Assembly: GCA_903822185.1 (NCBI GenBank)
Contig: CAIJOA010000048.1
Location: 124,001 to 188,000, forward strand
Length of the DNA stretch: 64,000 bases
Reading direction: 5' to 3'
Source: an uncultured Rhodospirillales bacterium
GTDB lineage: Bacteria > Pseudomonadota > Alphaproteobacteria > ATCC43930 > CGMCC-115725
The translations under genes and the position numbers were made by a program. The notes below the pieces were generated by a model. It saw only the letters and a program-made list of their open reading frames with translations. It was not told the DNA's origin and made no database searches. This document shows positions 22,657 through 50,959 of the stretch, piece by piece (within the stretch, counting starts at the first letter, position 1; each line of letters starts with the position of its first letter).

Positions 22657-22700
22657 GTTCTATCCCCGTTTTGTCGATGGCATATCGAACTGGCCAAATA

Positions 22701-22727
22701 CGCCGGCGTCAACCACAAACGCCGGCG
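22701..22727 (-). terminator. possible transcription stop after the binding-protein gene
   Basis: A perfect 9-bp inverted repeat (CGCCGGCGT / ACGCCGGCG) with a 9-base loop, eight bases past the stop of the gene ending at 22735 and before fhs. The tract following on the minus strand is only mildly T-rich, so termination may be partial. Confidence 0.5.
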
Positions 22728-22734
22728 AGAATTT

Positions 22735-23736: not shown

Positions 23737-23748
23737 TGAGCTTTCCTT

Positions 23749-24768
23749 TTATTTGAGACGCGCCGACGCCTCTTTGATGAGCGCCAGCCCGTCATGCTGC
23801 CGGGCATCGAGATCGGCCTTGATGAGGCCCAGCTCTCGCTGCGAATGGACGTTGCGCGATACCGCGTCGATATCGGTGAGGCCGTTCGGGTCGCGATAAT
23901 TGTCCGCCTTGGTGAAGAGCCAATCCTGCATTGTCGCCACCGGCACCTTGGTGAAATCCGAGACGACCTTCACCGCCGCGTCGTGATTGGCCGGATCGAG
24001 ATACCAATGGATCGAGCGCACGTAATCTTCGAGCAGATCGACCATCACTGCGCGGTTCTTGTCGAGGAACGGCTGGCGCGCGACCCAGAACGAGAGTCCG
24101 ACATGACCCATCGCCTCGTTGGTGGTGAAGAACGTGCGCGTGTTGGCGATGAATTCCGGATCGCGCGACCAGGGCAAGGTCGAGGGCACCAGATCGGCCT
24201 TATGTTCCATCAGCACCGACTTCATGTTCGGAAAGGCGATTTCGATGACGCTGAAGTCGCGCTTATCGATCATCCCACGTTTCAGCATCATCGCCTTCAT
24301 GATCATATCGAGGCCGCCGCCGATGCCGTTCGTGACCAGCACCTTGCCCTTCAAATCCTCGACGCGTTTGATCGGCGAATCCTTGAGGACCGCGAAATCG
24401 GCGGTGCCGTAGCCGGGAATGCCCCATTGGATTTCGTCGGCGATGATTTTGAGGTCGGCCATGCCGGCGTTTTCGACGGCGATGCTGAAGGACGAAAAGC
24501 CGAGCGCGGCGATATCGATCTCGCCGCTTTGCTGCGCCGTGATCTGGAGCGGCGAGCCTTGGAAATGGATCGCCTCGACCGTGTAGGAGATGCCGTTATG
24601 CTTGGCGATGCCCTCCTTGGGGAAAAGGATCGGCACCAGCGAGGCCGGGGCCGCTACCCAACCCATGCGGATTTTGACCGGATCGGCCTTGGCCATCGGC
24701 GCTAAAGCCAGGGCGACCGCCAAGGCTCCGCCCAGAATCGATGTCCCCAAAATGGATGTCGAAGGCAT
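23749..24768 (-). CDS. NMT1-type solute-binding protein, tandem copy 1
   Basis: A 339-residue paralogue of the next gene. Signal peptide about 1-28 (ALAPMAKA), then DPVKIRMGWVAAPASLVPILF. It shares FQGSPLQITAQQSGEIDIAALGFSSFSIAVENAGM and the GKVLVTNGIGGGLDMI hinge region with copy 2. It heads a minus-strand run, copy 1, copy 2, then fhs, and is divergent from the PadR gene, so its promoter region adjoins the PadR operator at 24872-24889. That placement makes it a possible PadR target as well. Confidence 0.87.
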   Translation of the reverse strand: MPSTSILGTSILGGALAVALALAPMAKADPVKIRMGWVAAPASLVPILFPKEGIAKHNGISYTVEAIHFQGSPLQITAQQSGEIDIAALGFSSFSIAVENAGMADLKIIADEIQWGIPGYGTADFAVLKDSPIKRVEDLKGKVLVTNGIGGGLDMIMKAMMLKRGMIDKRDFSVIEIAFPNMKSVLMEHKADLVPSTLPWSRDPEFIANTRTFFTTNEAMGHVGLSFWVARQPFLDKNRAVMVDLLEDYVRSIHWYLDPANHDAAVKVVSDFTKVPVATMQDWLFTKADNYRDPNGLTDIDAVSRNVHSQRELGLIKADLDARQHDGLALIKEASARLK

Positions 24769-24852
24769 GCTGAAAACCCTCCCTGTTCGTCTTTTTGCTT
24801 ATCGCCACCCTATCACAGGGAGGCCCCCTAGAAAGAATCTTCAGAAAGACCC

Positions 24853-24880
24853 TTGACTCTTTCATCGAAAAACATATCTT
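24853..24880 (+). promoter_or_regulatory. promoter of the PadR gene
   Basis: TTGACT (24853-24858), a 16-base spacer, TATCTT (24875-24880). The -10 box lies inside the inverted repeat at 24872-24889, so repressor binding would block RNA polymerase. Confidence 0.6.
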
Positions 24881-24889
24881 ACGATATGT
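24872..24889. promoter_or_regulatory. putative PadR operator
   Basis: A perfect 7-bp inverted repeat, ACATATC-TTAC-GATATGT, directly upstream of a PadR-family gene and covering its -10 box. It strongly resembles the AT-rich dyads bound by PadR repressors, and autoregulation is inferred. Confidence 0.7.
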
Positions 24890-24916
24890 CGTTAGCAAAA
24901 AGGAGTACGACATTTA

Positions 24917-25537
24917 ATGCACCATCATTTTAGAAAACTTGAGAAATTGCGCCACGCCATGGGTAGCCACCGTCACGGACGGCGCGGCTTCGGCGGCCCC
25001 TTCGCGGGTGGCTTTGCCGATGGAACGGGCATGGGCGGCGGCGGTTTCCGCACCGGTCGTAAGCTCGGCGCGGCCGATCTGCAGATCGTCATCCTGGCGC
25101 TGCTGAAAGACAAGCCCCGTCACGGCTATGAGGTCATCAAGGCGATCGAAGAGCATTCCGGCGGGTTTTATGTTCCGAGCCCGGGCGTGATCTACCCCGC
25201 CCTCACCTATCTCGAAGAAGTCGGCGAAGCCGTGGTCGAGGTCGAGGGCAACAAAAAGCTCTACAGCGTGACCCCCGAAGGCGAGGCCCGGCTGAAAAAG
25301 GATCAAGAGATCGCCGACGCGATCATGGTCCAGCTCGGCCGCATGGGTCAGAAAATGGACCGGGTCCGCGAAGCCTTCGCAGCGGACGAGGAAGATGCGA
25401 CCGGCACCATCGACGTGCGGACCGCCGTCCATGGCTTGCGGATGGCGCTACGCTCGAAGAAATCGGCATCGAACGAAGAGCGCCAGCGGGTTCTCGAGAT
25501 CCTGCAGCGCGCGACCAAGGAAATCCTCGGGTCGTAA
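24917..25537 (+). CDS. PadR family transcriptional regulator with His/Gly-rich N-terminus
   Basis: A 206-residue DNA-binding protein. After an unusual 50-residue leader rich in His, Arg and Gly (starts MHHHFRKLEK; later GGGFRTG) comes the PadR winged helix: LQIVILALLKDKPRHGYEVIKAI, then PSPGVIYPALTYLEEVG with wing GNKKLYSVTPEG. A C-terminal helical dimerisation region ends the protein. PadR repressors respond to phenolic acids or drugs, and the His-rich leader could bind metal. The autoregulatory operator sits upstream. ATG 24917 follows AGGAG at 24901. The divergent binding-protein gene is the nearest possible other target. Confidence 0.92.
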   Translation: MHHHFRKLEKLRHAMGSHRHGRRGFGGPFAGGFADGTGMGGGGFRTGRKLGAADLQIVILALLKDKPRHGYEVIKAIEEHSGGFYVPSPGVIYPALTYLEEVGEAVVEVEGNKKLYSVTPEGEARLKKDQEIADAIMVQLGRMGQKMDRVREAFAADEEDATGTIDVRTAVHGLRMALRSKKSASNEERQRVLEILQRATKEILGS

Positions 25538-30515: not shown

Positions 30516-31310
30516 ATGGTCTCCCTCGACCGACGCACCCTCGACCGACGCAAGGGCATCCAATCGATCGAGATCGGCTTTCGCGTCGTCGCGGCTTTGG
30601 AGCGTGCGGGCGCGCCGCAATCGCTGTCGCAGATCGCGCGCGATTGCGGCATGACGCCCAGCAAGGTGCATTTCTATCTCGTCAGCCTCACGCGCGTGGG
30701 CCTGGTCGCTCAAAGTGCGACGGGCGGGCTTTATCGCCTTGGTCCGGCGGCGATGCGGCTGGGGCTTGCTGCCCTGGCGCAGCTCGACATTCTGGAACTG
30801 GCGCGCGAGGAAATGGCGCGGCTGAGCGCAGTTACTGGCAACACCGTGTTCCTTTCGATCTGGAGCGGCAAGGGACCGACCGTCATCAACCGGTTCGACG
30901 GTGAGAAGATCGCGCCGCTGGCGATTCGTGTCGGCGCGGTGATGTCGTTGCTGGGATCGGCGACGGGTCAGGCCTTCCTCGCCTGGCAACCGGAAAGCAT
31001 CACCAAAACCCTGCTGGCGCGCGAGCTTGCTGATGCGGGCAATGCCGATGTCACTGCCACGATCGACCGCGTTCGCGGCAGCGGCCTTTCCGTCATTCAC
31101 GGCATGGTGGTGCCTGGCATCTTCGCGGTCGCCGCACCGATCTTCGATCACGAAGGCGGGCTGCATTGCGTACTGACCGCCATCGACGAGGCGGCGGGCG
31201 CTCACGACGCCCCGACCGAGGTGGCCTACGCGCTCAATGAATCCGCGCGCGCGGTGTCGCGCGCGGCTGGCTATGTCACCAAAGAGGAAGAAGCGGCCGA
31301 ACCGATTTAA
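30516..31310 (+). CDS. IclR family transcriptional regulator
   Basis: A 264-residue regulator: N-terminal winged helix (about 10-75; SLSQIARDCGMTPSKVHFYLVSLTRVGLV, then GLYRLGPAAMRLG) and C-terminal IclR effector domain (FLSIWSGKGPTVINRF, VGAVMSLLGSATGQAFLAW, AVAAPIFDHEGG). IclR proteins control aromatic and acid catabolism and sense pathway metabolites. It is divergent from the MetE-like operon, with overlapping promoters, and is followed after a short gap by an MFS gene; both sides are likely targets. Confidence 0.93.
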   Translation: MVSLDRRTLDRRKGIQSIEIGFRVVAALERAGAPQSLSQIARDCGMTPSKVHFYLVSLTRVGLVAQSATGGLYRLGPAAMRLGLAALAQLDILELAREEMARLSAVTGNTVFLSIWSGKGPTVINRFDGEKIAPLAIRVGAVMSLLGSATGQAFLAWQPESITKTLLARELADAGNADVTATIDRVRGSGLSVIHGMVVPGIFAVAAPIFDHEGGLHCVLTAIDEAAGAHDAPTEVAYALNESARAVSRAAGYVTKEEEAAEPI

Positions 31311-31367
31311 CAGGAGATGGATCAAGAGACGCTGAAAGCGTCCAGTATCCGAACAACGGAGGAAACG

Positions 31368-32773
31368 ATGGTAGAGGGACGTAGAGTCGAGATCGCCGAG
31401 TTGGTCGAGAACCAGAAATTCGGCCGCTATCAGCTCGTGACGCTGATTCTTTGTTTTCTGATCTTGTTCATCGACGGGCTCGATTACAGCGCGGCGAATG
31501 TCGGTGCGCCGGCGATCATTCGCGCCTTTGGTGTCGAACGCAGCGCCATGGGAATGGTCTTCGGCTGGGGCAATTTCGGCATCCTCTGCGGCAGCCTGCT
31601 CTTCGGCTATATTGGCGACCGCTATGGCCGCAAGGTCGGCGCGATTACCGGCGTCCTGACCTATAGCCTTCCGGCGCTTGCCATCTATTTCACCGGCTCG
31701 ATCGAGCATCTCATGGTGCTGCGCTTCTTCGCCGGGCTCGGCATCGGCGGCGTCATTCCCAACACCATTGCGCTACTGACCGAAACCGCACCGAAGAAAT
31801 TCCGGTCGAGCTTCGTCATGCTGTGTTTCATCGGCTATTCCGCCGGCACCGCGGCCATCGCGCAGATCGCGGCGTGGCTCATTCCAACCCATGGCTGGAC
31901 GGTCGTGTTCCTCACCGCCGGCAGCGTCGGCACCCTTCTCGGCTTGTTCCTGCTCTACGCGCTGCCGGAATCGATCCGCTGGGTTGGGCTGCATCAACCG
32001 GGTTCGGCGCGGCTACATGCGATGATTGCACGCTTCGCACCGGATCGCGGTTTCGGTCCCGAGACCGCCTTCTATCTGCATCAGCCGATGCAGGGCGAAA
32101 AGTTCCGGGTGGCTCAGCTGTTCGCCGGCAACCTTAAATGGGTAACGACGCTGCTGTGGCTCGGCTATTTCGCCGAGTCCCTTACCTTCATGACATTCCT
32201 CAGCTGGCTCGGCGTCATCCTCGAGGGCGCCGGTCTCGCGCCGCAGGAAGCATCGCTCGCCTTCTCCTACGCGGCGATCGGCGGCGTCTGTGCCTTGCTG
32301 GTGCTGTCGCGTTTTCTCGACAAGTTCGGGCCGATGGCGACGGTCATCCCAGCACTCTGCGCCGTGGCGCTGCTGATTTATCTCGGTGCCATCGCCGGCT
32401 CCTCGGCGCTCGTGGTGACGTCGGTCGCGGTGCTGGCCATGGCCTGCTGCCAGGGTACGCATAATTCCTTCAACGGCACGGTCGGCGGATTCTATCCGAC
32501 GCAAATCCGTGCCAAGGGCGTCGGGTATGCCAGCGGATTCGGCCGGTTCGCGCTGGTGCTTGGCCCTGTGATCGCGGGCTTTCTGCTATCGGCGCATCTG
32601 CCGATCGCCAAACTGATGTATGTCGTCGCCGCGCCTATCTGGTCGTGTCGGTCGTCTGCTTCGGGCTGGGGCGGCTTTATCGCCAGCGGTTCGCCGCCGG
32701 TGAAGCAGCCGTCGCCGCGTTTCATGACATTCCGGCGGAGGACGGCGCAATGCCGTTGGCGACGAGACAGTAA
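31368..32773 (+). pseudogene. MFS transporter gene with a frameshift near its 3' end
   Basis: An MFS carrier of about 12 helices: LFIDGLDYSAANVGAP in helix 1, GYIGDRYGRKVG in the 2-3 loop, LPESIRW after helix 6. The frame is normal to about 32635. There, in GTCGTCGCCGCGCC-TATCTGG, one base appears to be missing. Read in the next frame, the sequence continues as YLVVSVVCFGLGRLYRQRFAAG and stops at 32773, the ending expected for this family. In the unshifted frame the reading runs on to 32960 through arginine-rich non-coding sequence and overlaps the convergent gcvPB. A recent mutation or an assembly error are both possible. ATG 31368 follows GGAGG with 5-base spacing and is preferred to ATG 31317. 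Confidence 0.8.
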
Positions 32774-32793
32774 GGACGGAAAAGGCGGCGCGG

Positions 32794-34329
32794 CTATTGC
32801 GCCGCATCGGCTTTCGTCTCAGGGCGCCAGCGTAGGATGGGTTTGCGTGCCGCCGCAACCTCGTCGAGACGGCGGCGCGGCGCGTTATGCGGCGCGCCGT
32901 GGAAGAAATCGGCTTCGCGGTTCGCCGCGCGCGCTGCGAGGTGGCGCATCGAGGCGATGAAGCGGTCGAGTGACGCCTTGCTTTCATTTTCGGTCGGTTC
33001 GACCAGCAGCGCGCCATGAACGACGAGCGGAAAATACATCGTCATCGGATGATAGCCTTCGTCGATCAGCGCCTTGGCGAAATCGAGCGTCGTCACGCCG
33101 GTATCGCCGAGGAAGCGATCGTCGAACAACACTTCGTGCATTGCCGCGCCGGCAAAGGACGGCGACATCACATCCTTGAGACTGGCGAGGAGATAATTTG
33201 CGTTGAGGACCGCATCGCCCGACAGCCGCGCCATGCCGTCGCCGCCATGGCTCATCATGAAAGCGAGCGCGCGGACGAACATGCCCATCTGGCCATGGAA
33301 GGCCTTGATCCGGCCCAGTGCGTGTGCCGCCTCGTCCTTCGCGTCTTCGATCAGGCGGAAGCCCTGGGCGTTATGCACCAGCCACGGCAACGGCGCATAA
33401 GGCGCTAGGCTCGCCGCCATCGCCACCGGACCGCTACCCGGTCCCCCGCCGCCATGGGGCGTCGAGAAGGTCTTGTGCAGATTGATGTGCATGCAGTCGA
33501 TGCCGAGATCGCCCGGCCGCACGCGCCCGAGCAGCGCATTGAGGTTCGCGCCGTCGAGATAAAAATAAGCGCCGGCAGCATGAACCGCCTCGGCAATCTG
33601 CGGCGACTGATCCTCGAACAAACCGCAGGTGTTCGGGTTGGTCAGCATGATCGCGGCGACATCGTCACCGAGCTTTGCCTTCAGCGCCGCGAGATCGACG
33701 CGGCCGCGCGCATCGGCCGGAATCGGATCGATGGCATAACCGCACGCGGCAGCCGTCGCGGGATTGGTGCCGTGCGCGGATTCCGGCACCAGTACACGCA
33801 CGCGTTTTTCGCCGCGCGCTTCGAGCGCGGCCTTGATCGCCATCATGCCGCACATTTCGCCATGCGCGCCCGCGGCGGGCGACAACGCCACCGCCGGCAG
33901 GCCGGTGATGGTCTTCAGCCAATGCGCCAGCGTGTCCATCAGTTCGAGCGCGCCCTGCACCGTCGCCATCGGCTGCAACGGATGAAGATCGGCAAAACCG
34001 GGCAGTCGCGCCATCTTTTCGTTGAGGCGCGGATTATGCTTCATCGTGCAGGAGCCGAGCGGATAGATGCCGGTATCGATCGCATAATTCTTTTGCGAAA
34101 GACGCGTGTAATGCCGCACGATCTGCGGTTCGCTCAACCCTGGCAGGCCGATCCGGCCTTCGCGGCGCAAACCGCCGAGACGATCCGTAACCTTTGGCGC
34201 ATCCGGCAGATCGACGCCGCAACGCCCGGCACCGTCTTCCTCGAACAGCAATGTCTCGTCGGATTCGACGGTGCGGCCACCACCACCGGCGATGGTGAAG
34301 CCCGAAACCGCGCGGCTCCAATCATTCAT
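32794..34329 (-). CDS. gcvPB: glycine dehydrogenase (decarboxylating) subunit 2
   Basis: A 511-residue PLP subunit of the split P-protein of the glycine cleavage system, which decarboxylates glycine and loads the methylamine onto lipoyl GcvH. The PLP lysine is Lys286 in [16 protein letters not shown]. Also seen are [10 protein letters not shown] near residue 90 and [12 protein letters not shown]. It overlaps gcvPA by four bases and is last in the order gcvT-gcvH-gcvPA-gcvPB. The split form is common in alphaproteobacteria and Gram-positives. It converges with the frameshifted MFS gene. Confidence 0.96.
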
Positions 34330-37799: not shown

Positions 37800-38717
37800 T
37801 TAGACTTTCTTCGCGGCCAACTTTTTTGCCGATTCGGCGAGGAAGTCCGACAGACGCTTGCGCAGCGTAGCAGCTTGTTCCGGGGTCCAGTCGCGGAAGC
37901 CGCGGCCGTTCGCCATGCCGAGTTCGCCCTTCGCGACTTTATCGACCAGATACGGATGCGGGCCGGGGGTGCGATCAAGATCGGCGATCAGCGTCTTATG
38001 AATGTCGAGCGTCAGGTTGAGCCCGACAAGATCGGATTGTTCCAGCGGGCCGCAGACGGCCATACGCGCGCCGAATCCTTCCTTCACCACCGTATCGAGC
38101 GTTTCCGCATCGCATACGCCGTCGGCAACGAGCGCGATCGCTTCGCGCTTCAGCGCATGCTGCAAGCGATTGCCGATGAAGCCGGGAATGTCTTTCCGGA
38201 CATGGACCGGTGATTTACCGACCGCCTTCAGCAAGGCAATCGTCGCCTCGACCGTCGCCAGCGACGTCTCGGTCGATTGCACGACCTCGACCAGCGGAAT
38301 GAGATGCGGCGGGTTCCAGTAATGCGTGCCGACGACGCGCGATTGATCCGCAACCTGCGCACCGATCTGACCGATCGGAATCGCCGAGGTGTTGGTGCAG
38401 AGGATCGCGGTCGGCTTGGTCTTCTCACCGAGATTCTTGAAGATCGCCTGCTTCACTTCGAGCTTTTCCGGCCCGGCTTCGAAGACGAAATCGGCGTCTT
38501 TCACCGCTTCAGCGAAATCGGCGTGGAAGCTGACATTATCGAGACAAGCCGGGTCTTGTGCCAGCAAGGTGCAGATCGCGGTCATCTTGCCCTTGGCCGC
38601 GCCGAGGATGTCGGCATTGGGATCGTGCAGCGCGACCTTGTGGCCGGCGGCTGCGAAAATCTGGCCGATGCCATGGCCCATCAGGCCGGCGCCGATAACG
38701 GCGATCTTTGCGCTCAT
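37800..38717 (-). CDS. 3-hydroxyacyl-CoA dehydrogenase family protein
   Basis: A 305-residue NAD-dependent dehydrogenase: Rossmann motif GAGLMGHGIG (about residues 9-18), VFEAGPEKLEVKQAIF, TNTSAIPIGQIG and the catalytic HYWNPPHLIPLVEVV, then a C-terminal helical dimer domain. It oxidises a 3-hydroxyacyl-CoA or a related beta-hydroxy acid. HYWNPP in place of HFFNPV resembles the lambda-crystallin/carnitine dehydrogenase side of the family. It is last in the minus-strand order cyclase, cyclase, cupin, SDR, HAD, separated from the SDR by a degenerate repeat. Confidence 0.88.
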   Translation of the reverse strand: MSAKIAVIGAGLMGHGIGQIFAAAGHKVALHDPNADILGAAKGKMTAICTLLAQDPACLDNVSFHADFAEAVKDADFVFEAGPEKLEVKQAIFKNLGEKTKPTAILCTNTSAIPIGQIGAQVADQSRVVGTHYWNPPHLIPLVEVVQSTETSLATVEATIALLKAVGKSPVHVRKDIPGFIGNRLQHALKREAIALVADGVCDAETLDTVVKEGFGARMAVCGPLEQSDLVGLNLTLDIHKTLIADLDRTPGPHPYLVDKVAKGELGMANGRGFRDWTPEQAATLRKRLSDFLAESAKKLAAKKV

Positions 38718-38751
38718 GAAAATGCCTCGTGACGTTAACCGGGGTTAGAAA

Positions 38752-38806
38752 CGACGAAGCAACCCAGTCGGAAAACGGGGTTGCTTCGGTAGGCTTAGCA
38801 ATAACG
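38752..38806. repeat. palindromic repeat, family 1, degenerate copy
   Basis: CGACGAAGCAACCCAG with a mutated partner (GGGTTGCTTCGG) and a worn outer arm AGCAATAACG; the left outer arm is not recognisable. It is probably an old copy. Confidence 0.65.
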
Positions 38807-38813
38807 AAAACGA

Positions 38814-39617
38814 TCAGCCGGCGGTGAAGCCGCCATCGACATAGATGACCTGACCGGTGCAGAAGTCCGACGCCGGCGCGAGCAGATAAAGCGCCATGCC
38901 CATCAGATCTTCGACTTCGGCCAGACGGCCCAACGGAATACGCGAGAGCGAGCGGGCGCGCGTCGCCTGGCCCAATTCGTCGTCGCTATACATCCAGGCC
39001 GTCAGCTTCGAGCGGAAGACGGTCGGGCCGATCGAATTGACGGTGATGCCGTGCTTGGCCCATTCGGTTGCGAGCACGCGAGTCAGCGCATCGGTCGCGC
39101 CCTTCGAGGCGCAATAGCCGGTATAGCCCGAGATGTTGCCGTGGCGTCCGCGCACGGACGACATCATCAGCATCTTGCCTTTGATCTTCTGGGCGAGCCA
39201 GTAGGTGCCGACCGCCTTGGCCATCAGATATTCGCCACGGACATTCGCGTCCATGACGTTCTGCCATTCCTCGTAGCTCTGCTCGTGAATGAAGCCGGCC
39301 TTGTTGTAGCCGGACGCCACGATGAGCTGATCAACCTTGCCGTAGGCATCGAGCCCGGTCTTCAACATCGCTTCGGCGTCTTCCAGCGTGTCGGGACGGC
39401 GATAGACGACCTGGACCTTGCCGCCGAGGCTTTTGACTTCCGCGACGACTTCGTCGAGTTCGGCCTTCGAACCCGAGGCGAGGGTCAGATCGACGCCCAA
39501 CGACGCGAGCATGAGCGCGCAGCCGCGGCCGAACGCACCCGACGCGCCGGTGATGACCGCGGACTTGCCGCGGACATCGAACATGCTGAGTGGATTTTTG
39601 AGCGTATCGGAAATCAT
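38814..39617 (-). CDS. SDR family oxidoreductase
   Basis: A 267-residue short-chain dehydrogenase. TGASGAFGRG is the cofactor loop (about residues 23-32); catalytic residues are Ser in MSSVRGRHG and the pair in YTGYCASKG; the C-terminus has YVDGGF. The usual NNAG is replaced by VASGYN, a departure seen in some gluconate/sugar-acid dehydrogenases. Its start overlaps the stop of the upstream cupin by four bases, so they are translated together. Confidence 0.92.
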   Translation of the reverse strand: MISDTLKNPLSMFDVRGKSAVITGASGAFGRGCALMLASLGVDLTLASGSKAELDEVVAEVKSLGGKVQVVYRRPDTLEDAEAMLKTGLDAYGKVDQLIVASGYNKAGFIHEQSYEEWQNVMDANVRGEYLMAKAVGTYWLAQKIKGKMLMMSSVRGRHGNISGYTGYCASKGATDALTRVLATEWAKHGITVNSIGPTVFRSKLTAWMYSDDELGQATRARSLSRIPLGRLAEVEDLMGMALYLLAPASDFCTGQVIYVDGGFTAG

Positions 39618-39961
39618 GGCGCGACCTTCGCGTTGGAAACGATCACCAGCATGGTGGCCACGCTGTTGCTGCGATTTTCGACGAAGCGCATTTCCTTCGG
39701 GGCGATATGCACCGAATCGAACGCACCCAGTACCGCCGTACCTTGGTCGGTGACGACGGTCACTTCACCCTCGATCACGAAATAGACGCGCTCGAAATCC
39801 GAGGCGCTTTTTTCGGCCTTGCCGCCGGGCAGGTAATGCGAGATGCCGCACCAGAAGGTACTGGTCTTGGTCGCCTCGGCGCCCTGCAGACGCAGGGCGC
39901 TGACGTCGAAGTGATTCGCGGCTTCGTAGCGTTTCGCTTCTTTGAACTTCGTGACCTGCAT
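39614..39961 (-). CDS. small cupin protein
   Basis: A 115-residue cupin-fold protein. Box 1 reads LPGGKAEKSASDFERVYFVIEGEVTV, where the His-x-His ligands are replaced by Ala/Lys/Ser; box 2 retains DSVHIAP. A metal site is therefore doubtful and a binding or structural role is possible. It overlaps the SDR by four bases and follows the cyclase gene at 39971 by nine bases, in the middle of a catabolic operon. Confidence 0.84.
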   Translation of the reverse strand: MQVTKFKEAKRYEAANHFDVSALRLQGAEATKTSTFWCGISHYLPGGKAEKSASDFERVYFVIEGEVTVVTDQGTAVLGAFDSVHIAPKEMRFVENRSNSVATMLVIVSNAKVAP

Positions 39962-39970
39962 CGCCGGACC

Positions 39971-40774
39971 TTATTCCTTTTCGAAGCGGAACTTCTGCTG
40001 CGGATCGACGACCGCGACGATGCGGATGCCGCAGCCTTCGCCCTCGGGCCAACGCCAGGGGAAGCACATGAAGGTGCAGCGCTTGCCGGTGACTTTGTCG
40101 AGATCGCCGTTGACGTTCTCGATGCCCGGAATGCCGTTGCCCATCAGCACTTTGTGCGAGGGTTCCCACAGCGGGAAGTCTTCGAGGATATGACGGCCGG
40201 TCTCGGCGAAATATTCATCGTCGAGATGCGGCTGGGCCGGGCCGGGGCCGTGCGGCGCGAGGAACGTGCCGAGCGGATGATCGAGCGCCTGAACATCGAC
40301 GCCGACGAGCTTCACCTTCTTCGCGACCAGCCATTCGGCGGCGGGCTTATAAAGGCCCGGCGAATAAGCGAAGTAATCCGGATTGTCGCCCCACAGGCGA
40401 TGCGCGCCGGTGTTGATCATGACGATGTCGCCCGGCATGATTTTCGGCGTGGCTTTTTCCAGATCCTCGGGGGTGATGACGCCCCACTTGCCCTTCGGGA
40501 TCGACACCGCGACGCCGGTGCCCATGAAGCGCCAGCTTTCGTAATCGGTGATGAAAGGCGTGTTTTCGAGAACGTGGATCGGCGCGTCCATATGCGTGCC
40601 GCGGTGCATGATGCCTTCGTATTCGAGCACCTGGACGCCGTCCTTCGCGTGAAATTCCTTCACGCGGATATTCATGTTCGCCTTGGAAGGCCATTGCGGC
40701 ATTCCATGCACCCACTCGGTGCTGAGGTTATAAAATTCGAGGCCTTTGGTATCGGTCTTTGGCATGAAGCTCAC
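39971..40774 (-). CDS. cyclase family metal-dependent hydrolase (kynurenine formamidase-like), copy with intact motif
   Basis: A 267-residue protein of the cyclase/kynurenine formamidase/isatin hydrolase family, which opens cyclic or formyl amides using a metal site. The signature MHRGTHMDAPIH fits the family HxGTHxDxPxH. Also seen are VMINTGAHRL and LVGVDVQALDHPLG near the C-terminal third. It is 22 bases downstream of a paralogue (40797-41612) with an altered motif. The ring-opened substrate may be an amide or lactone from the same pathway as the SDR and cupin. Confidence 0.88.
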   Translation of the reverse strand: MSFMPKTDTKGLEFYNLSTEWVHGMPQWPSKANMNIRVKEFHAKDGVQVLEYEGIMHRGTHMDAPIHVLENTPFITDYESWRFMGTGVAVSIPKGKWGVITPEDLEKATPKIMPGDIVMINTGAHRLWGDNPDYFAYSPGLYKPAAEWLVAKKVKLVGVDVQALDHPLGTFLAPHGPGPAQPHLDDEYFAETGRHILEDFPLWEPSHKVLMGNGIPGIENVNGDLDKVTGKRCTFMCFPWRWPEGEGCGIRIVAVVDPQQKFRFEKE

Positions 40775-40796
40775 CGGTTCCGTATGTCTGTCTTGA

Positions 40797-41612
40797 TTAG
40801 CTGACGACGCGTTCGCCCGATTCGAGGCGGTAGTCGCCCTTCGAATCGAACATGGCCATCAGGCGAATGACGCAAGCGTCGCCGTCTTTCCACAGCCAGG
40901 GATAGGCGTGGAAGGTCGTGCGCTTACCGTTCACCGAATCGACGTCGCCGCCGACATTCTCGATCGTCGGGATACCCGCGGCCAGCAGCGTCTTATGCGC
41001 CACGTTCCATTCTGGGAAATCCTTCTTCGCGTCGCGGCCGGTGACTTCTTTGTAGTGTCCGGGCAGTTCGCGGATCTGCGGACCATTGCGGTGCGGCCCG
41101 AGCGAGGTCGCCAGCGGATGATCGATCGTCGCGGTGTCCAGACCGACGAGCTTCACCTTTTTCGCGACGAGCCATTGGGCCGCTTCTTTCGAAAGGCCCG
41201 GCGCATGGCCGAAATATTCCTGGCTGTCGGCATAACGGTGATGCCAGCCGGTGTTGATGATGACGATATCGTCTTCCTCGATCGCCGGGGTCGCCTTTTC
41301 GAGATCGGCAACGGTGATCACTTCCCACTTTTTCTTGGGGAGGTTCAACACAACGCCGCTGCCGAAGAAGCGGTCCATCGCGATGCTGCCGACGCCCTTG
41401 GCGCCCGGAATCAGATGGATCGGGGCGTTCACATGCGTCGAGACATGCATGGTGGCGGTGAATTTCTGGGTCATCACGCCGTGCTTCGCGTGATAGGTGA
41501 TGCGTTCGAGCTTCACATCTTCGTAGCCGGGGAAGGTCGGCGCGTTGTAGCCCCAGGGGTGGCTCAACTCATACATCTTCAATCCCGTTACCGGGTCGAT
41601 AATAGCAGTCAT
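40797..41612 (-). CDS. cyclase family protein, paralogue with altered metal motif
   Basis: A 271-residue paralogue of the neighbouring cyclase: same landmarks KMYELSHPWGYNAPTFPG, IVIINTGWHHRY, LVGLDTATIDHPL. The signature, however, is MHVSTHVNAPIH: Gly is Ser and the metal-ligand Asp is Asn. It is the promoter-proximal gene of the five-gene minus-strand unit. It may bind a different metal, act on a different ring, or form a hetero-complex with the intact copy. It is divergent from the FAH-family gene at 41830; the 217-base gap between shows no feature I can name. Confidence 0.87.
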   Translation of the reverse strand: MTAIIDPVTGLKMYELSHPWGYNAPTFPGYEDVKLERITYHAKHGVMTQKFTATMHVSTHVNAPIHLIPGAKGVGSIAMDRFFGSGVVLNLPKKKWEVITVADLEKATPAIEEDDIVIINTGWHHRYADSQEYFGHAPGLSKEAAQWLVAKKVKLVGLDTATIDHPLATSLGPHRNGPQIRELPGHYKEVTGRDAKKDFPEWNVAHKTLLAAGIPTIENVGGDVDSVNGKRTTFHAYPWLWKDGDACVIRLMAMFDSKGDYRLESGERVVS

Positions 41613-41829
41613 GCGAATTTTCCCGCAGATTAGGGGCTGTGCAAAAGCGTGGGCAGTGTAACAAAACGGCCCGCGATGGGAAGCCCCGCCGCCCCAGACG
41701 GGACAGCCCTCCTTACGTAAAACCCCGTATTGACTCGTAAAATTGGATTTTGGCAGCCGCCCTCGACAGGAGACGGCGGAAACCGCTATGCCGGGGCGAT
41801 CGGTCTAAAAAATCCGGGAGGAGTGAAAA

Positions 41830-42675
41830 ATGAAGATAGCAACCTATACGCGCGGTGGCGCCAAGAGCTACGGCGTGGTCGCCGCGGACGGCATCGTCGA
41901 TCTGGGCAAGCGCATCGGCACGAAATATCCGAGCCTGTTGTCGCTGTTGGAGCAGAACGGTCTCGACGAGGCGCGCCGCGCCGTCGAGGGCCAGAAGCCC
42001 GATTTCGCCGAGAGCGAGATCACCTACCTGCCGCTGATCCCGGACCGCATCAACATCTATTGCACCGGCCTCAACTATAAAGAGCATATCGAAGAGACCA
42101 AGCTGGACGCGCCGAAATTCCCGCGCCTCTTCATGAAGCTCGATGAATCACTGGTCGGCCATAACGTGCCGATGATCCGCCCCCAGGCCTCGACCGAATT
42201 CGATTTCGAAGCCGAGTTGATGGTCGTGATCGGCAAGGAAGCCCGCCATGTCAGCGAGGCCGACGCGATGAACTATGTCGCCGGCTACACGATCTTCAAT
42301 GACGGCTCGATCCGCGACTTCCAGAAGCGCACGACCGACCAGGGCAAGAACTTCTTCCAGTCGAGCTCGCTTGGCCCCTACATGGTGACCATGGACGAAG
42401 TGCCGAAGAACCCGACCGACATGACGCTGATCGCGCGCCTCAACGGCAAGGTCGAGCAATCGACCACCTGCGGCAACATGATCTTCCCAGTCCCGGTGCT
42501 GCTGTCGTACTTCTCGAAGATCAGCCGCCTGCGTCCCGGCGACATGATCGCCACCGGCACCTGCGGCCGCGTCTCCTACAGCGACAAGCAGTTCATGAAA
42601 CACGGCGACACGATCGAAATCGAAATCGGCGGCATCGGCAAGCTGGTCAACCCGATCGTCGACGAGAAGCTGTAA
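41830..42675 (+). CDS. fumarylacetoacetate hydrolase family protein
   Basis: A 281-residue FAH-fold enzyme (acylpyruvate hydrolase, decarboxylase or hydratase). N-terminal lid domain about 1-60, then YCTGLNYKEHIEE and metal ligands in FDFEAELMVVIG and IFNDGSIRDFQ. The usual GTPGGVG near the end is GTCGRVSYSDKQF, which sets it apart. Typical of meta-cleavage and homogentisate-type pathways. SD GGGAGGAG precedes ATG 41830. It is divergent from the cyclase operon and is followed by a strong terminator. Confidence 0.9.
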   Translation: MKIATYTRGGAKSYGVVAADGIVDLGKRIGTKYPSLLSLLEQNGLDEARRAVEGQKPDFAESEITYLPLIPDRINIYCTGLNYKEHIEETKLDAPKFPRLFMKLDESLVGHNVPMIRPQASTEFDFEAELMVVIGKEARHVSEADAMNYVAGYTIFNDGSIRDFQKRTTDQGKNFFQSSSLGPYMVTMDEVPKNPTDMTLIARLNGKVEQSTTCGNMIFPVPVLLSYFSKISRLRPGDMIATGTCGRVSYSDKQFMKHGDTIEIEIGGIGKLVNPIVDEKL

Positions 42676-42701
42676 CCGCAAAGCTTCTTTCTCGAAATGA
42701 A

Positions 42702-42730
42702 AATGCCCGGAGCGATCCGGGCATTTTTTG
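42702..42730. terminator. rho-independent terminator between convergent genes
   Basis: A perfect 10-bp stem (AATGCCCGGA / TCCGGGCATT) with a GCGA loop and a T-run after it; A-rich sequence on the other side makes it possibly bidirectional for the amidohydrolase gene ending at 42750. Confidence 0.9.
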
Positions 42731-42749
42731 TTTTTGCAGTCCGTGTTTC

Positions 42750-43730
42750 TTAGTGATTCCCGAGCCGCAGATATTTCTCCGCATTGCCGTGGGCGAACTT
42801 TTCCATGTCGGCCGGTGAGATCGGCAGGTGATGCAGGAAGTCCATGCCGGCCTTGTTCGATTCAAACGGCCAGTCGATCGAGAACATCATGTTGTCGATG
42901 CCGACGGTCGTCAGCGCGCAAAGGAACGACGGGATCGAGAAATTGCCGCTGCAGGTGATCAGCAGATTCTCGAGCAGATATTCTTTCGGGCTTTTCTTGA
43001 GGCCGCGCTTCTTGGCCGAGAATTGCGCGTGATCGTTGAGGCGGTGAATCCAATAGGGCAATCCCTCGCCCATATGGCCGAGGATGAATTTCAAATTCGG
43101 ATAAGCGTCGAACACGCCCGAGAAGATGATGCGCAGGAAATGCGTCGCCGTATCCATCGAATAGCCCCAGGCGGCGAAGGCGAGATCTTCATAGCCCTCG
43201 AAATAGGCCTTCATCGCCGCTTCCGACGGGTTGCGCGGGTGGAGATAGATCGGCACGTCGAGCGAAGCCGCCGCTTCGAAGATCGGCCAATATTTCTTGG
43301 CGTCGAGGAATTCGCCGTCGTGATGGCCGTTGATCATCGTGCCGACGAAGCCGTTCTTGACGCAGCGTTCCAATTCCTTGACCGAGGCGGCGACATCCGC
43401 CGTCGGCAGCGCGGCGAGCGCGGCAAAGCGCGTCGGATGACGCTTGCAGGCTTCGTGCATGCGATCGTTGGCGTCGATCGAGACGGCGATGCCGGTCTTG
43501 GCGTCGAAGCCCTGCGGACCTGGCGCGACCAGCGACAGGATCTGCATATCGACGCCATGTTCGTCCATGAATTTGATGCGCGAATTTTCGAGATCGAGCA
43601 ATTCGGTCGGCATGTCGTGGCCGAGATAGCGTGAACGATCGACCAGTACCGCAGCACGACGCAGATGCGGCGGCACCGCCTCGTTGCCCATAACCGTCGC
43701 CATATGTTCTTCGAGCGCGATGACTTTCAC
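42750..43730 (-). CDS. amidohydrolase family aryl decarboxylase-like (dihydroxybenzoate/resorcylate decarboxylase group)
   Basis: A 326-residue amidohydrolase-2 protein. The start MKVIALEEHMA matches the metal-binding EEHF-type opening of 2,3-dihydroxybenzoate and gamma-resorcylate decarboxylases. Further ligands are the His of YLHPRNPSE and LGHMGEGLPYWIHR and the Asp of SIDWPFES. It would non-oxidatively decarboxylate a hydroxyaryl acid or hydrolyse a related lactone. It is distinct from the shorter paralogue at 9629. It is divergent from the Ldh-type gene. Confidence 0.88.
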   Translation of the reverse strand: MKVIALEEHMATVMGNEAVPPHLRRAAVLVDRSRYLGHDMPTELLDLENSRIKFMDEHGVDMQILSLVAPGPQGFDAKTGIAVSIDANDRMHEACKRHPTRFAALAALPTADVAASVKELERCVKNGFVGTMINGHHDGEFLDAKKYWPIFEAAASLDVPIYLHPRNPSEAAMKAYFEGYEDLAFAAWGYSMDTATHFLRIIFSGVFDAYPNLKFILGHMGEGLPYWIHRLNDHAQFSAKKRGLKKSPKEYLLENLLITCSGNFSIPSFLCALTTVGIDNMMFSIDWPFESNKAGMDFLHHLPISPADMEKFAHGNAEKYLRLGNH

Positions 43731-43866
43731 GAAATCCTCCCAGCAAAAACCGATCTTCGATTGGAGCGGAGATTGCCGTCTGGCTTCTCTCTTCGCAATT
43801 CAATAATTTAACGCCCACCAAAACCAAAACGGCATACCGAAGAAAAAACAAGGGAGCGATACCGCC

Positions 43867-44940
43867 ATGATCCTGCAACCCGAGGCGCTGACCGAATTCG
43901 CCGCCGCGATCATCGAGGCAGCCGGCAGCCAACGCGCCGAAGCGTTGGAAGTCGCGCGTCACCTGGTCGAGGCCAACCTAAAAGGCCACGACAGCCACGG
44001 CGTCGGCATGATCCCGACCTATACCACCAACGTGACGACGGGACGGCTTCACCCCAATAAGCACGCCGAGAAGATTTCCGAAATGGGATCGATCGCCGTG
44101 TTCGACGGCGGCATGGGTTACGGCCAGGTGATCGCGCGCGAGGCGACGGAATGGGCCATCGCCAAGACGCAGGAAACCGGCCTCGCCATGTTCGCCATCC
44201 GCAACACGCACCACGTCGCGCGCGTCGGCGCTTACGGCGAGCAGGCGGCGGCGGCAGGCTTCGTCTCGATCCATTTCGTCAATGTGTTGATCGCACCGGG
44301 CCGCACCGCGCCGTTCGGCGGCACCACCGGCCGCTTCGGCACCGATCCGATCTGCATCACGTTCCCGGGGAATCTAGGTGGAGGCAAGAAGGACGCACCG
44401 CCAGTCGTCCTCGATTTCGCCACCAGCCGCGTCGCCGCCGGCAAGCTGCGCGTCGCGATGAACGAGGACAAGCAGATGCAGCCCGGCGTCTTGATCGATG
44501 CCGAAGGCCATGACGCGACCGACCCGAATGTTTTTTATAAAAAGAACGGCGCGATGCTGCCCTTCGGCGAGCATAAGGGATCGGGGCTCGCCCTCGTCTG
44601 CGAGCTGATGGCCGGCGTCCTGACCGGCGGCGGCGTGATGCAGGGCAACATGACCAACCACGGCGTCAAGAACGGCATGTTCACGATCATGCTGGACCCG
44701 GCGAAGTTCGGCGATACCGGCTGGATGTCGAACGAGATGCAGACCCTGCTGGATTGGGTGAAATCGTCGAAGCCGCGCCCCGGCGTCGAAGAGGTGCTGG
44801 TCGCCGGCGAGCCCGAGCGCAAATCACGCGACAAGCGGCTTAAGACAGGCATTCCCGTCGATACCACCACCTGGGGCGAGCTGGTCGCCGCGGCAAAGGC
44901 GGCCGGCGTACCAGCGGCAAAGATCCCGACCGAAGCCTAG
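43867..44940 (+). CDS. Ldh family oxidoreductase (malate/L-lactate/ureidoglycolate dehydrogenase type)
   Basis: A 357-residue NAD(P)-dependent dehydrogenase of the LDH2/MDH2 family. Catalytic His is in NTHHVARVGAYG, preceded by KGHDSHGVGMIPTY, and ATSRVAAGK and PFGEHKGSGLALVCELMAG mark the cofactor-binding half. It oxidises a 2-hydroxy acid to the keto acid in the cytoplasm. ATG 43867 follows AGGGAG. It sits next to the amidohydrolase, on the opposite strand, and is followed 62 bases later by the CydDC-like gene. Confidence 0.9.
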   Translation: MILQPEALTEFAAAIIEAAGSQRAEALEVARHLVEANLKGHDSHGVGMIPTYTTNVTTGRLHPNKHAEKISEMGSIAVFDGGMGYGQVIAREATEWAIAKTQETGLAMFAIRNTHHVARVGAYGEQAAAAGFVSIHFVNVLIAPGRTAPFGGTTGRFGTDPICITFPGNLGGGKKDAPPVVLDFATSRVAAGKLRVAMNEDKQMQPGVLIDAEGHDATDPNVFYKKNGAMLPFGEHKGSGLALVCELMAGVLTGGGVMQGNMTNHGVKNGMFTIMLDPAKFGDTGWMSNEMQTLLDWVKSSKPRPGVEEVLVAGEPERKSRDKRLKTGIPVDTTTWGELVAAAKAAGVPAAKIPTEA

Positions 44941-49195: not shown

Positions 49196-49942
49196 ATGTC
49201 AGCGACCGAAAAACTTGCCAAGCTTCTCGCCGAATCGCGCAATGCCGTCATCTTTACCGGGGCGGGTATCTCCACCGAATCGGGCATTCCCGATTTCCGC
49301 AGTCCCGGCGGCGTCTGGAGCCGGATGAAGCCCATCTATTATCAGGACTTCATCGCCAGTGAAGATGCTCGTCGCGAGGCCTGGGACCGGACTTTCTCGG
49401 GGGTGATGCGCTGGACTGGCGCGTCCCCCAACGCCGGTCATTACGCGGTGGCGCGGCTGGTTGCGCGCGGCAAGGTTTCGGCGATCATCACCCAGAATAT
49501 CGACAATCTGCATCAAGACTCCGGCGTGCCCGCCAGCCAGATCGTCGAGCTGCACGGCAATGCCAGCTATGCCACCTGCCTCGATTGCGGATTGCGGCAC
49601 GAGCTGGATGTCTTGAAGCAAAGCTTTCTCGGCCGCGGCGAGATCCCGGTATGCCGCGACTGCGGCGGGCTCGTCAAAACGGCGACGATCTCGTTCGGCC
49701 AAGCGATGCCTCAAGGGCCGATGGAACGGGCGCAAGAAGCGACGCTCGCCTGCGATCTGTTCATCGTGTTGGGTTCGTCGCTGGTGGTATATCCGGCGGC
49801 GGGATTTCCGCTGTTGGCGAAACAGAACGACGCTCGGTTGGTGATCGTCAATCGTGAAGCGACCGAGCAAGACGATTACGCCGATCTCGTCATTCACGAC
49901 TCGATCGGCGCGACTCTCGCCGCCGTTGTCCCGGTCGACTAA
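49196..49942 (+). CDS. NAD-dependent protein deacylase (sirtuin)
   Basis: A 248-residue Sir2-family enzyme, removing acyl groups from protein lysines using NAD. GAGISTESGIPDFRS (about 22-36), TQNIDNLHQ, the catalytic His in VELHGN, the zinc Cys pairs in ATCLDCG and VCRDCGG, and GSSLVVYPAAGFP are all present. The Tyr/Arg pair typical of desuccinylases is not evident, so deacetylation is the default guess. Complete and standard in length. Confidence 0.94.
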   Translation: MSATEKLAKLLAESRNAVIFTGAGISTESGIPDFRSPGGVWSRMKPIYYQDFIASEDARREAWDRTFSGVMRWTGASPNAGHYAVARLVARGKVSAIITQNIDNLHQDSGVPASQIVELHGNASYATCLDCGLRHELDVLKQSFLGRGEIPVCRDCGGLVKTATISFGQAMPQGPMERAQEATLACDLFIVLGSSLVVYPAAGFPLLAKQNDARLVIVNREATEQDDYADLVIHDSIGATLAAVVPVD

Positions 49943-50035: not shown

Positions 50036-50959
50036 TTAGTTCGGGCGATAAACCCGCGGCTGATCCGCGACGATCGGATTGCGCAGCACGCCCAGCCCAG
50101 TGATCTCGACCTCGACCTTGTCGCCTGGTTTCATATTCACCTGACCCAGGATCTTATGCCGTCCGGACGGGGCGAGAGTCTCGCCGGGATGCGGCGGCAG
50201 GGCGCCCGGCGTGCCCATGGCGATGACGTCGCCCGGCCGCAGCGTATAACCGGCCGAGAGATATTCGATCAACCGTTCGACGGGGAACAGCATGTCGTTA
50301 AGCGGCGCGTTCTGGCGTTCGATGCCGTTGAGCCGCGTGATGACCCGCTGCGCCTTCGGATCGCCGAATTCGTCGTTGGTCATCATCCAGGGGCCGATGC
50401 TGCCCGATTCCTCGAAATTCTTGCCGAGACCGAAATTGCGGTTATGGCGTTGATATTCGCGCACCGAGCCTTCGTTGAAGCAGGAGAAGCCGGCGATGTG
50501 GTCGAAGGCTTTCTCGATCGGGATGTGGCGGCCGCCTTTGCCGATGATCACCGCCAGTTCACCCTCGTAATCGAATTCCTTGGCGACTTCCGGCGGGGGG
50601 CATAGCAGCGGATGACCATCGCCGACCATCGAGGCTGGCGTGCGGATGAACAGATGCGGGAATTCGCGCGACGTGGTGAGGCCGGTTTCCTCGATATGCG
50701 TTTTGAAGTTGAGCGCCAAAGCCCAGGTCACATGCGGGTTGCCGATCAGCGGCAACAGCTTCACGTCTTTCAAGGCATGCGTGCCGGTCTTGCCGGCGGT
50801 GGCATCGCGCACGCAGGCAAGACCTTCGGGCATTTCGAGAATCGCGCGCAACGTGTGCGGCAGTTGCGGTGCTGCCTCGTCCAGCGCGACGAAGTGATCG
50901 TCGCCGGTCATGACGCCGACATGATCCGCGCCGCCAGCCGAATAGGAAATGATGCGCAT
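50036..50959 (-). CDS. fumarylacetoacetate hydrolase family protein
   Basis: A 307-residue FAH-fold protein, less similar to the copy at 41830. ALNFKTHIEET, metal ligands in FDYEGELAVIIG and the motif CFNEGSVREYQ (Glu where many have Asp), then RPGDVIAMGTPGALPPH. It could hydrolyse an acylpyruvate or act as a hydratase/isomerase in aromatic catabolism. It stands alone between a repeat and the CsbD unit, with no operon partners. Confidence 0.88.
   Translation of the reverse strand: MRIISYSAGGADHVGVMTGDDHFVALDEAAPQLPHTLRAILEMPEGLACVRDATAGKTGTHALKDVKLLPLIGNPHVTWALALNFKTHIEETGLTTSREFPHLFIRTPASMVGDGHPLLCPPPEVAKEFDYEGELAVIIGKGGRHIPIEKAFDHIAGFSCFNEGSVREYQRHNRNFGLGKNFEESGSIGPWMMTNDEFGDPKAQRVITRLNGIERQNAPLNDMLFPVERLIEYLSAGYTLRPGDVIAMGTPGALPPHPGETLAPSGRHKILGQVNMKPGDKVEVEITGLGVLRNPIVADQPRVYRPN

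Follow-up and report, generated by a model that had tools for sequence, protein, structure and literature searches.

A candidate reductive ring-opening operon of phloroglucinol-pathway type, with duplicated cyclases and a likely hydrolytic end, in an uncultured Rhodospirillales bacterium

The DNA considered in this work is a stretch of 64,000 nucleotides (hereafter, the window) from an uncultured Rhodospirillales bacterium (assembly GCA_903822185.1, contig CAIJOA010000048.1, positions 124,001 to 188,000 of the forward strand), and the analysis concerns a block of eight genes lying between its positions 37,800 and 44,940. A first-pass annotation, made from the letters alone, had described this block as a ring-degradation unit with its own layout, composed of two cyclases, a cupin, a short-chain dehydrogenase/reductase (SDR), a hydroxyacyl-CoA dehydrogenase, a hydrolase of the fumarylacetoacetate hydrolase (FAH) family, an amidohydrolase, and an Ldh-type dehydrogenase. 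All eight open reading frames are present at that place, and Pfam confirmed the family of each of them. The features of the locus are the following:

37800-38717, minus strand: 3HCDH_N/3HCDH gene (HCDH), proposed 3-hydroxy-5-oxo-acid dehydrogenase (Pfam, residues)
38718-38813, minus strand: spacer between the SDR and HCDH genes; its 11-bp hairpin (z -2.84) may act as an attenuator or a processing site
38814-39617, minus strand: SDR, phloroglucinol-reductase-like, proposed ring reductase (Pfam, PDB match 5g4k/5g4l, motif)
39614-39961, minus strand: small cupin, Cupin_2 (Pfam)
39971-40774, minus strand: cyc2, Cyclase-family paralogue 2 (Pfam)
40797-41612, minus strand: cyc1, Cyclase-family (PF04199) paralogue 1 (Pfam)
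41830-42675, plus strand: FAH-superfamily hydrolase (FAA_hydrolase), proposed to cleave a 3,5-dioxo acid (Pfam)
42699-42728, plus strand: terminator-like hairpin of 13 pairs with a T-rich tail, between the FAH and amidohydrolase genes
42750-43730, minus strand: Amidohydro_2 gene, gamma-resorcylate-decarboxylase-like, proposed ortho-hydroxybenzoate decarboxylase feeding the pathway (Pfam, alignment)
43867-44940, plus strand: Ldh_2-type 2-hydroxyacid dehydrogenase (Pfam, NCBIfam PRK10098)

These frames are real genes and not chance ones, since a sister species of the same genus (genome G012, locus L097) has the complete set in an unchanged order, with identities of 70-91% (FAH 80%, cyc1 88%, cyc2 90%, cupin 91%, SDR 82%, HCDH 81%, amidohydrolase 87%, and Ldh 70%). 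The gaps from cyc1 to cyc2, from cyc2 to the cupin gene, and from the latter to the SDR gene are 22, 9, and -4 bases, respectively, a spacing that supports the idea that the four genes form one unit. The SDR and HCDH genes are instead 96 bases apart, and the gap contains the stable hairpin (z -2.84) listed above, so that the coupling of HCDH to the four preceding genes may be incomplete; this spacer is not common to the sister species, in which, according to the coordinates, only a few bases are found. The FAH gene is divergent from cyc1, with 217 bases between them. The existence of a separate unit and the divergence of its minus-strand genes from FAH were therefore correctly recognised in the first-pass annotation; the amidohydrolase and Ldh genes, which it had described as following, are not part of the same unit: FAH and the amidohydrolase converge onto the hairpin at 42699-42728, and the amidohydrolase and Ldh genes are divergent.

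The best matches of the SDR in a PDB search were 5g4k/5g4l (2e-46, versus 2.5e-37 for the next protein), which we take to be the phloroglucinol reductase of Clostridium sp. ATCC BAA-442, the PDB text naming it only as an SDR. The window SDR and 5g4k share the catalytic set S154, Y168, and K172, together with R156 and the segment PTVFRSxLTxWM. According to Zhou et al. (2023; PMC10470551), the phloroglucinol gene set comprises a reductase (PGR), a cyclase-family dihydrophloroglucinol cyclohydrolase (DPGC), a (S)-3-hydroxy-5-oxohexanoate dehydrogenase of the 3HCDH family (TfD), and a triacetate acetoacetate-lyase of the BKACE family (TAL); such clusters are reported there from Mesorhizobium, Bradyrhizobium, Mycobacterium, and others. 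The SDR, cyclase, and 3HCDH-like genes of the window match the PGR-DPGC-TfD core. The first-pass annotation had found no pathway that it could name; since these three genes are the core of the reductive phloroglucinol route, a name can be given. The SDR, whose role had been missed, would be the ring reductase of that route, and the opening of the ring would in turn be reductive plus hydrolytic. The ring opening suggested earlier is plausible for a cyclase-family hydrolase. Compared with the PGR-DPGC-TfD-TAL cluster of Clostridium scatologenes, the window has the same cyclase, PGR-type SDR, and 3HCDH-like dehydrogenase, the last of which would likewise use free acids; it differs in having two cyclases without the WPY pair, no adjoining TAL, and a changed dehydrogenase pocket, and in the addition of the FAH, amidohydrolase, Ldh, and cupin genes.

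In order to place the cluster among its relatives, genome contigs were scanned with the SDR alignment and the best 80 loci were kept, so that the numbers of loci are lower bounds. Nine of the scanned SDRs are 71-77% identical to that of the window, and every other one kept is at most 52% identical; the nine loci, the plasmid locus L006 (Rhizobium sp. ACO-34A), and the window group together in a quick tree as a single clade of 11 (SH-aLRT 99), here called type B, among which the sister species is not counted. Type B clusters were seen here in lineages of the Alphaproteobacteria, with records named Rhodoplanes, Sphingomonas, Xanthobacteraceae, Rhizobium, and others. Type A clusters (e.g., L005, L007, L011, L025, and L079) resemble the window in the order cyclase-cupin-SDR-HCDH and in an identity of about 50%; unlike type B, they have a cyclase with WPY, often a BKACE near by, and commonly a branched-chain ABC permease. 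The neighbourhood counts given below for the two types were made without L012, L013, L014, and the loci lacking a cyclase hit, and, as type B loci are related by descent (L017 and L020 closely so), the p-values come out too small. For the residue counts of the SDR, 12 rows, most of which had no long cyclase hit, were left out and L013 was set apart; on this basis, PTVFRSx[VLI]TxWM is present in 5g4k, in 67/67 type A and 10/11 type B SDRs, and in four of the 13 rows outside both groups.

At E<=1e-60, SDRs of this kind were found in two of 43 genomes of the order, both of this genus, and at E<=1e-100 in one of 385 genomes drawn from the class, the window's own; in the class-wide search, at most six candidates were scored per genome and the cut-off was set for type B. 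A search of viral contigs for a single DNA pattern representing the SDR motif did not retrieve any match. On plasmids, relatives of cyc1 lie in cyclase-cupin-SDR-HCDH cassettes, with a BKACE gene further on.

The multialignment of the cyclases, for whose residue counts L014 was left out and L013 and L080 were treated apart, revealed that the two paralogues are altered in different ways. The metal motif of cyc1, MHVSTHVNAPIH, has Asn in place of Asp, and the pocket motif WPY is replaced by FPG; cyc2 has an intact metal motif, MHRGTHMDAPIH, and WPS instead of WPY. The Asp of HxGTHxD, presumably a metal ligand, is kept in 10/10 cyc2 rows and in 66 of the 67 of type A. All 10 cyc1 rows have Asn there, and the first His of the motif is replaced in one of these 10 rows, as is the last His in one. 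WPY is found in all 67 type A rows and in both anaerobe-like ones, WPS in every cyc2 row (10/10), and a final G in every cyc1 row (10/10); the sister-species sequences agree. PMC10470551 names Trp20 and Tyr22 of DPGC as standing where isatin hydrolase has its substrate residues. In the clostridial relative L013 (Acetoanaerobium), positions 20 and 22 are the Trp and Tyr of WPY, and the pair was assigned to this motif through the L013 numbering and not through the CsDPGC sequence; it is uncertain whether L013 is truly a phloroglucinol cluster, as its SDR lacks PTVFRS. The idea that cyc1 carries the known W20/Y22 pair was rejected as a coincidence of numbering, the pair being WPY, which is missing from both window cyclases. 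Accordingly, neither cyc1 nor cyc2 combines a full metal site with W20/Y22.

Both cyclases are present in 10 of the 11 type B loci (L018, at a contig end, shows part of cyc2 only), and in L017, L019, and L020 they form a single open reading frame of 544-566 residues; in L017, the one fusion examined, Pfam recognised two Cyclase domains. In the cyclase tree, cyc1 and cyc2 form one clade of 10 rows each (99/100 and 100/100, respectively), joined at 92/88; their sister relation is tentative, the program having warned of long branches meeting. Taken together, the alignments suggest that cyc1 is probably a non-catalytic or altered partner of cyc2, and we propose cyc2 as the catalytic ring-opening C-C hydrolase.

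Regarding HCDH, the catalytic residues S111, H132, and N183, those expected of a TfD-type enzyme, are kept in all nine type B and all 58 type A rows. Position 190 is Trp in 58/58 type A rows and in L013, and Lys in 9/9 type B rows (W190K); position 227 is Asn in ordinary clusters and Gln in 9/9 type B rows (N227Q). These two replacements would imply a changed substrate pocket, perhaps one for an extra carboxylate. Of the NCBIfam models, 22 matched HCDH, none above its cut-off, including the 3-hydroxyacyl-CoA dehydrogenase of FadB/PaaH/HBD type. The closest solved relative is FHMPC dehydrogenase (PDB 4om8), the NCBIfam model of which gave 233 bits, below the cut-off of 500; the substrate of FHMPC dehydrogenase is a free acid, not a CoA ester.

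This relationship bears on the N-heterocyclic acids that the first-pass annotation had named as possible growth substrates. The substrate might lie outside the phloroglucinol class, for instance an N-heterocyclic acid or a lactam opened by an amidase-type cyclase: the nearest solved relative of HCDH acts on a pyridine acid, and isatin hydrolase and kynurenine formamidase are members of the cyclase family. The ties of the window cyclases to those enzymes are distant, however, the kynurenine formamidase model TIGR03035 giving 59.9 and 39.7 bits against a cut-off of 223; the SDR is specifically phloroglucinol-reductase-like, Pfam recognised no ring hydroxylase or nitrilase among the eight families, and no model of a heterocycle enzyme reached its NCBIfam cut-off. 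On these grounds we hold a heterocyclic substrate to be improbable, and the earlier suggestion is left with weak hints.

The two types also differ at the last step of the pathway. A BKACE gene lies within 10 kb of the SDR gene at 2/11 type B versus 42/69 type A loci (p 0.010); none was found near the other nine type B loci, some of which are on short contigs, nor within the window, which hence shows no co-located TAL. The two type B loci with a BKACE are L093, where it belongs to an adjoining type A-like cluster, and L015. Of ten BKACEs of related clusters chosen from 46 rows, seven pass the NCBIfam 3,5-dioxohexanoate:acetyl-CoA model, which suggests that type A relatives run through triacetate, and those of L013, L047, and L093 fail it. 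The Trp reported for CsTAL is present in the BKACEs of L013, L023, and L047; since L013 and L047 carry it and yet fail the model, the latter is an incomplete marker of the activity.

Conversely, a FAH-family gene lies near the SDR gene at 4/11 type B versus 2/69 type A loci (p 0.003), the profile used for this count being derived from 18 further FAH genes in the window and sister genomes; an earlier count, with profiles from type B members, gave 4/11 versus 1/69. This association of FAH genes with type B is suggestive. L006 makes the strongest case: its cyc1-cyc2-SDR-HCDH series is followed, seven bases on, by a FAH gene passing the fumarylacetoacetase model TIGR01266 (473.5 versus 375.3); the window FAH has no match to this model. 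Fumarylacetoacetase acts on 3,5- and 2,4-dioxo acids, including 3,5-dioxo acids other than its usual substrate. A second FAH-family gene of the window lies at 50036-50959, about 7 kb from that of the cluster, and is 37% identical to the cluster FAH of the sister species.

The amidohydrolase was confirmed as the resorcylate-decarboxylase-like protein that the first-pass annotation had seen in it. Its closest solved relatives are the gamma-resorcylate decarboxylases 3s4t and 2dvt (1.2e-67 and 3.1e-63, respectively), and it keeps in the alignment the segments LHPRNP, GHMGE, and DWPFE, along with LEEH at its start, which we take to be the active site of these decarboxylases; with its conserved metal and active-site segments it would be a decarboxylase of gamma-resorcylate type. 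It matched no NCBIfam model. A similar gene lies near 16 of the 69 type A loci, mostly upstream and on the opposite strand, and L017 and L020 have a UbiD-family gene in its place. The possibility that the amidohydrolase substitutes for BKACE, both of which occur at only 2/45 long-flank type A loci, found no support beyond shared descent when independent pairs were considered. A second, plus-strand amidohydrolase of a different Amidohydro_2 branch was seen at the type A loci L026, L029, L032, and L092.

Transport genes differ in part between the types. The branched-chain ABC permease is found at 33/45 long-flank type A versus 1/8 longer-flank type B loci (p 0.002). Carriers of the TRAP class, which take up organic acids, adjoin L006, L015, and L021, i.e., three of the eight longer-flank type B loci; their membrane part occurs at 3/8 type B versus 4/45 type A loci (p 0.06). 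The types are not separated by the TRAP binding protein (3/8 versus 8/45, p 0.34) or by ABC-transporter ATPases (p 0.20). What is seen of the amidohydrolase and of the transporters would fit a carboxylated substrate taken up by the cell and perhaps then decarboxylated.

Altogether, we read the block as a variant of the phloroglucinol-type operons for reductive ring opening, with a hydrolytic end, a reading to which we assign a probability of roughly 0.5. It builds on the gene content, the subtype, the duplication and fusion of the cyclase, the residue changes, and the neighbourhood statistics, all of them established at the sequence level. In the proposed scheme, the amidohydrolase would decarboxylate an ortho-hydroxybenzoate, e.g., 2,4,6-trihydroxybenzoate, and the SDR, as its homology suggests, would act on a 1,3,5-trihydroxybenzene in its keto form, be it phloroglucinol or a derivative with substituents, and reduce it to the dihydro compound. 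Cyc1 and cyc2, probably one heteromeric enzyme with the metal on cyc2, would then open the ring by retro-Claisen hydrolysis, giving a 3-hydroxy-5-oxo acid, which the 3HCDH-like protein would oxidise as the free acid to a 3,5-dioxo acid. Finally, the FAH-family hydrolase would split the latter with water into acetoacetate and a short acid, replacing the acetyl-CoA-dependent lyase (BKACE/TAL) of the known pathway. A hydrolytic end in place of the CoA-dependent lyase is likely, and the cluster may act on a plant compound related to phloroglucinol.

Several observations weigh against this scheme. FAH genes are abundant, with 22 in the window genome and 25 in that of the sister species; the four type B loci bearing one amount to about three lineages and two different FAH forms, and five of the eight longer-flank type B loci (L015, L016, L021, L022, and L093) have none near by. 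The window FAH is a short superfamily form without a TIGR01266 match in NCBIfam, and its resemblances to HpaG and to a 2,4-dioxo-acid hydrolase stay below the respective cut-offs. Furthermore, the only BKACE found in the genome lies on another contig and could serve in trans. The cupin and Ldh genes have no part in the scheme, and the predicted structure of the fused cyc1-cyc2 is poor (pLDDT 62.6, pTM 0.46). The Arg of the TGRN segment of 5g4k, a segment taken to be the TR(S/N) NADPH motif of PMC10470551, is lacking in both types: all 11 type B SDRs have Gly there, and none of the 67 of type A has the Arg. Other observations touch the substrate: W190K, N227Q, and the change of WPY to WPS or xPG argue that the substrate is not plain phloroglucinol; and on an Ancalomicrobiaceae contig (L093, 5367-13082) two clusters, one of type B and one type A-like, are direct neighbours and converge, which suggests that the two types differ in substrate.

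If the genome's single BKACE performed the last step in trans, the pathway would be the ordinary phloroglucinol one and the FAH, amidohydrolase, and Ldh genes unrelated neighbours. Both genomes of the genus (the window's and G012) indeed have one BKACE each, in a shared chromosomal context, and L015 has one of the same kind, 54% identical to that of the window genome, about 4 kb past its type B operon. Both proteins fail the NCBIfam 3,5-dioxohexanoate model NF053538 (246.6 for the genome's and 210.2 for that of L015, versus 430), though the model is incomplete, as the failures of L013 and L047, both carrying the CsTAL Trp, indicate. At the position of that Trp, the genome BKACE has Ala, though Ile occupies this position in the type A BKACEs passing the model. 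The genome BKACE adjoins a UbiD-family gene and a frame recognised by eye as a homogentisate dioxygenase, and the association of FAH with type B, together with the conservation in the sister species, favours FAH, amidohydrolase, and Ldh as linked genes. We thus consider a BKACE acting in trans unlikely.

The type B loci without FAH near by, three of which (L016, L021, and L022) also lack a BKACE, would be explained if cyc1 and cyc2 were successive C-C hydrolases, the one opening the ring and the other cleaving the 3,5-dioxo acid, with no need for FAH. That both paralogues occur in 10 of 11 type B loci, the remaining one (L018) ending with its contig, and in one open reading frame in three of them, agrees with such an arrangement. 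The change from Asp to Asn in 10/10 cyc1 rows and the losses of His look like lost rather than new catalysis, and this makes two successive hydrolases a distinctly unlikely solution.

The points touching the substrate, on the other hand, lead to a bolder possibility, which we regard as speculative and, on balance, somewhat unlikely: type B might be a separate reductive pathway opening a phloroglucinol ring with a carboxylate side chain (e.g., 2,4,6-trihydroxyphenylacetate). The pocket changes, the fumarylacetoacetase of L006, the TRAP carriers, and the double cluster of L093 are the reasons for proposing it. In such a pathway, Lys190 would bind the carboxylate, and a heteromeric cyclase pair with a single working metal site would lead to an acylacetoacetate, e.g., succinylacetoacetate, which belongs to the natural substrate class of fumarylacetoacetase. 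FAH would have been recruited separately, in a long form (L006, L017, and L020) and in a short one (the window's genus), for a CoA-free finish.

With regard to the remaining genes, the Ldh gene passes NCBIfam PRK10098 (392.4 versus 336) and is kept beside the cluster in the sister species. The cupin accompanies seven of the 11 type B clusters, most type A clusters, and the anaerobe-like L013; its only NCBIfam match, below cut-off (123.5 versus 175), is an oddly named mycobacterial beta-D-galactosidase model, and the word cupin was not found in the main text of PMC10470551.

The sister-species locus carries extra frames on both sides of FAH. A LigB-like ring-cleavage dioxygenase frame (L097, 7065-8201) lies there between FAH and cyc1, where the window has no room for it, and a dienelactone hydrolase frame (L097, 12086-12883) comes after HCDH. 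FTHFS, two NMT1-type binding proteins, and PadR adjoin the cluster in the same species (L097, 13247-17854); in the window, this group is about 12 kb from the cluster, with gcvTHP genes and others between, and may be functionally linked. On the evidence of the sister-species neighbourhood, the following feature can be added as possible outlying parts:

20962-25537: FTHFS, two NMT1-type binding proteins, and a PadR regulator

Two further neighbours were noted. An IclR regulator followed by an MFS carrier (30516-32960) could belong to the pathway, IclR regulators being found beside several plasmid clusters (L006, L007, L008, L010, and L011). A Sir2 family gene lies near the cluster at 49196-49942, and its equivalent in L016 (3556-4305; 63% identical) comes directly after cyc2, which may be due to chance.

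The full gene set for the reductive opening of the phloroglucinol ring became available in 2023, and its authors propose such clusters for recognising polyphenol-degrading microbes (PMC10470551). Besides that paper and a 2026 review, no work joining phloroglucinol, dihydrophloroglucinol, and cyclohydrolase was found in the open-licence literature searched (titles and abstract openings), nor any description there of the type B subtype, of a duplicated or fused cyclase, or of a FAH end. What is new is type B itself, with its duplicated and sometimes fused cyclase, one degenerate metal motif, altered pockets, and a likely hydrolytic last step. If the proposed reading is true, type B would be a second branch of this pathway that opens the ring with a duplicated enzyme and ends differently, and searches requiring the CoA-dependent lyase would miss or misread it. 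Type B would also offer a natural case of duplication and fusion in which one of the two enzyme copies has seemingly lost its metal site.

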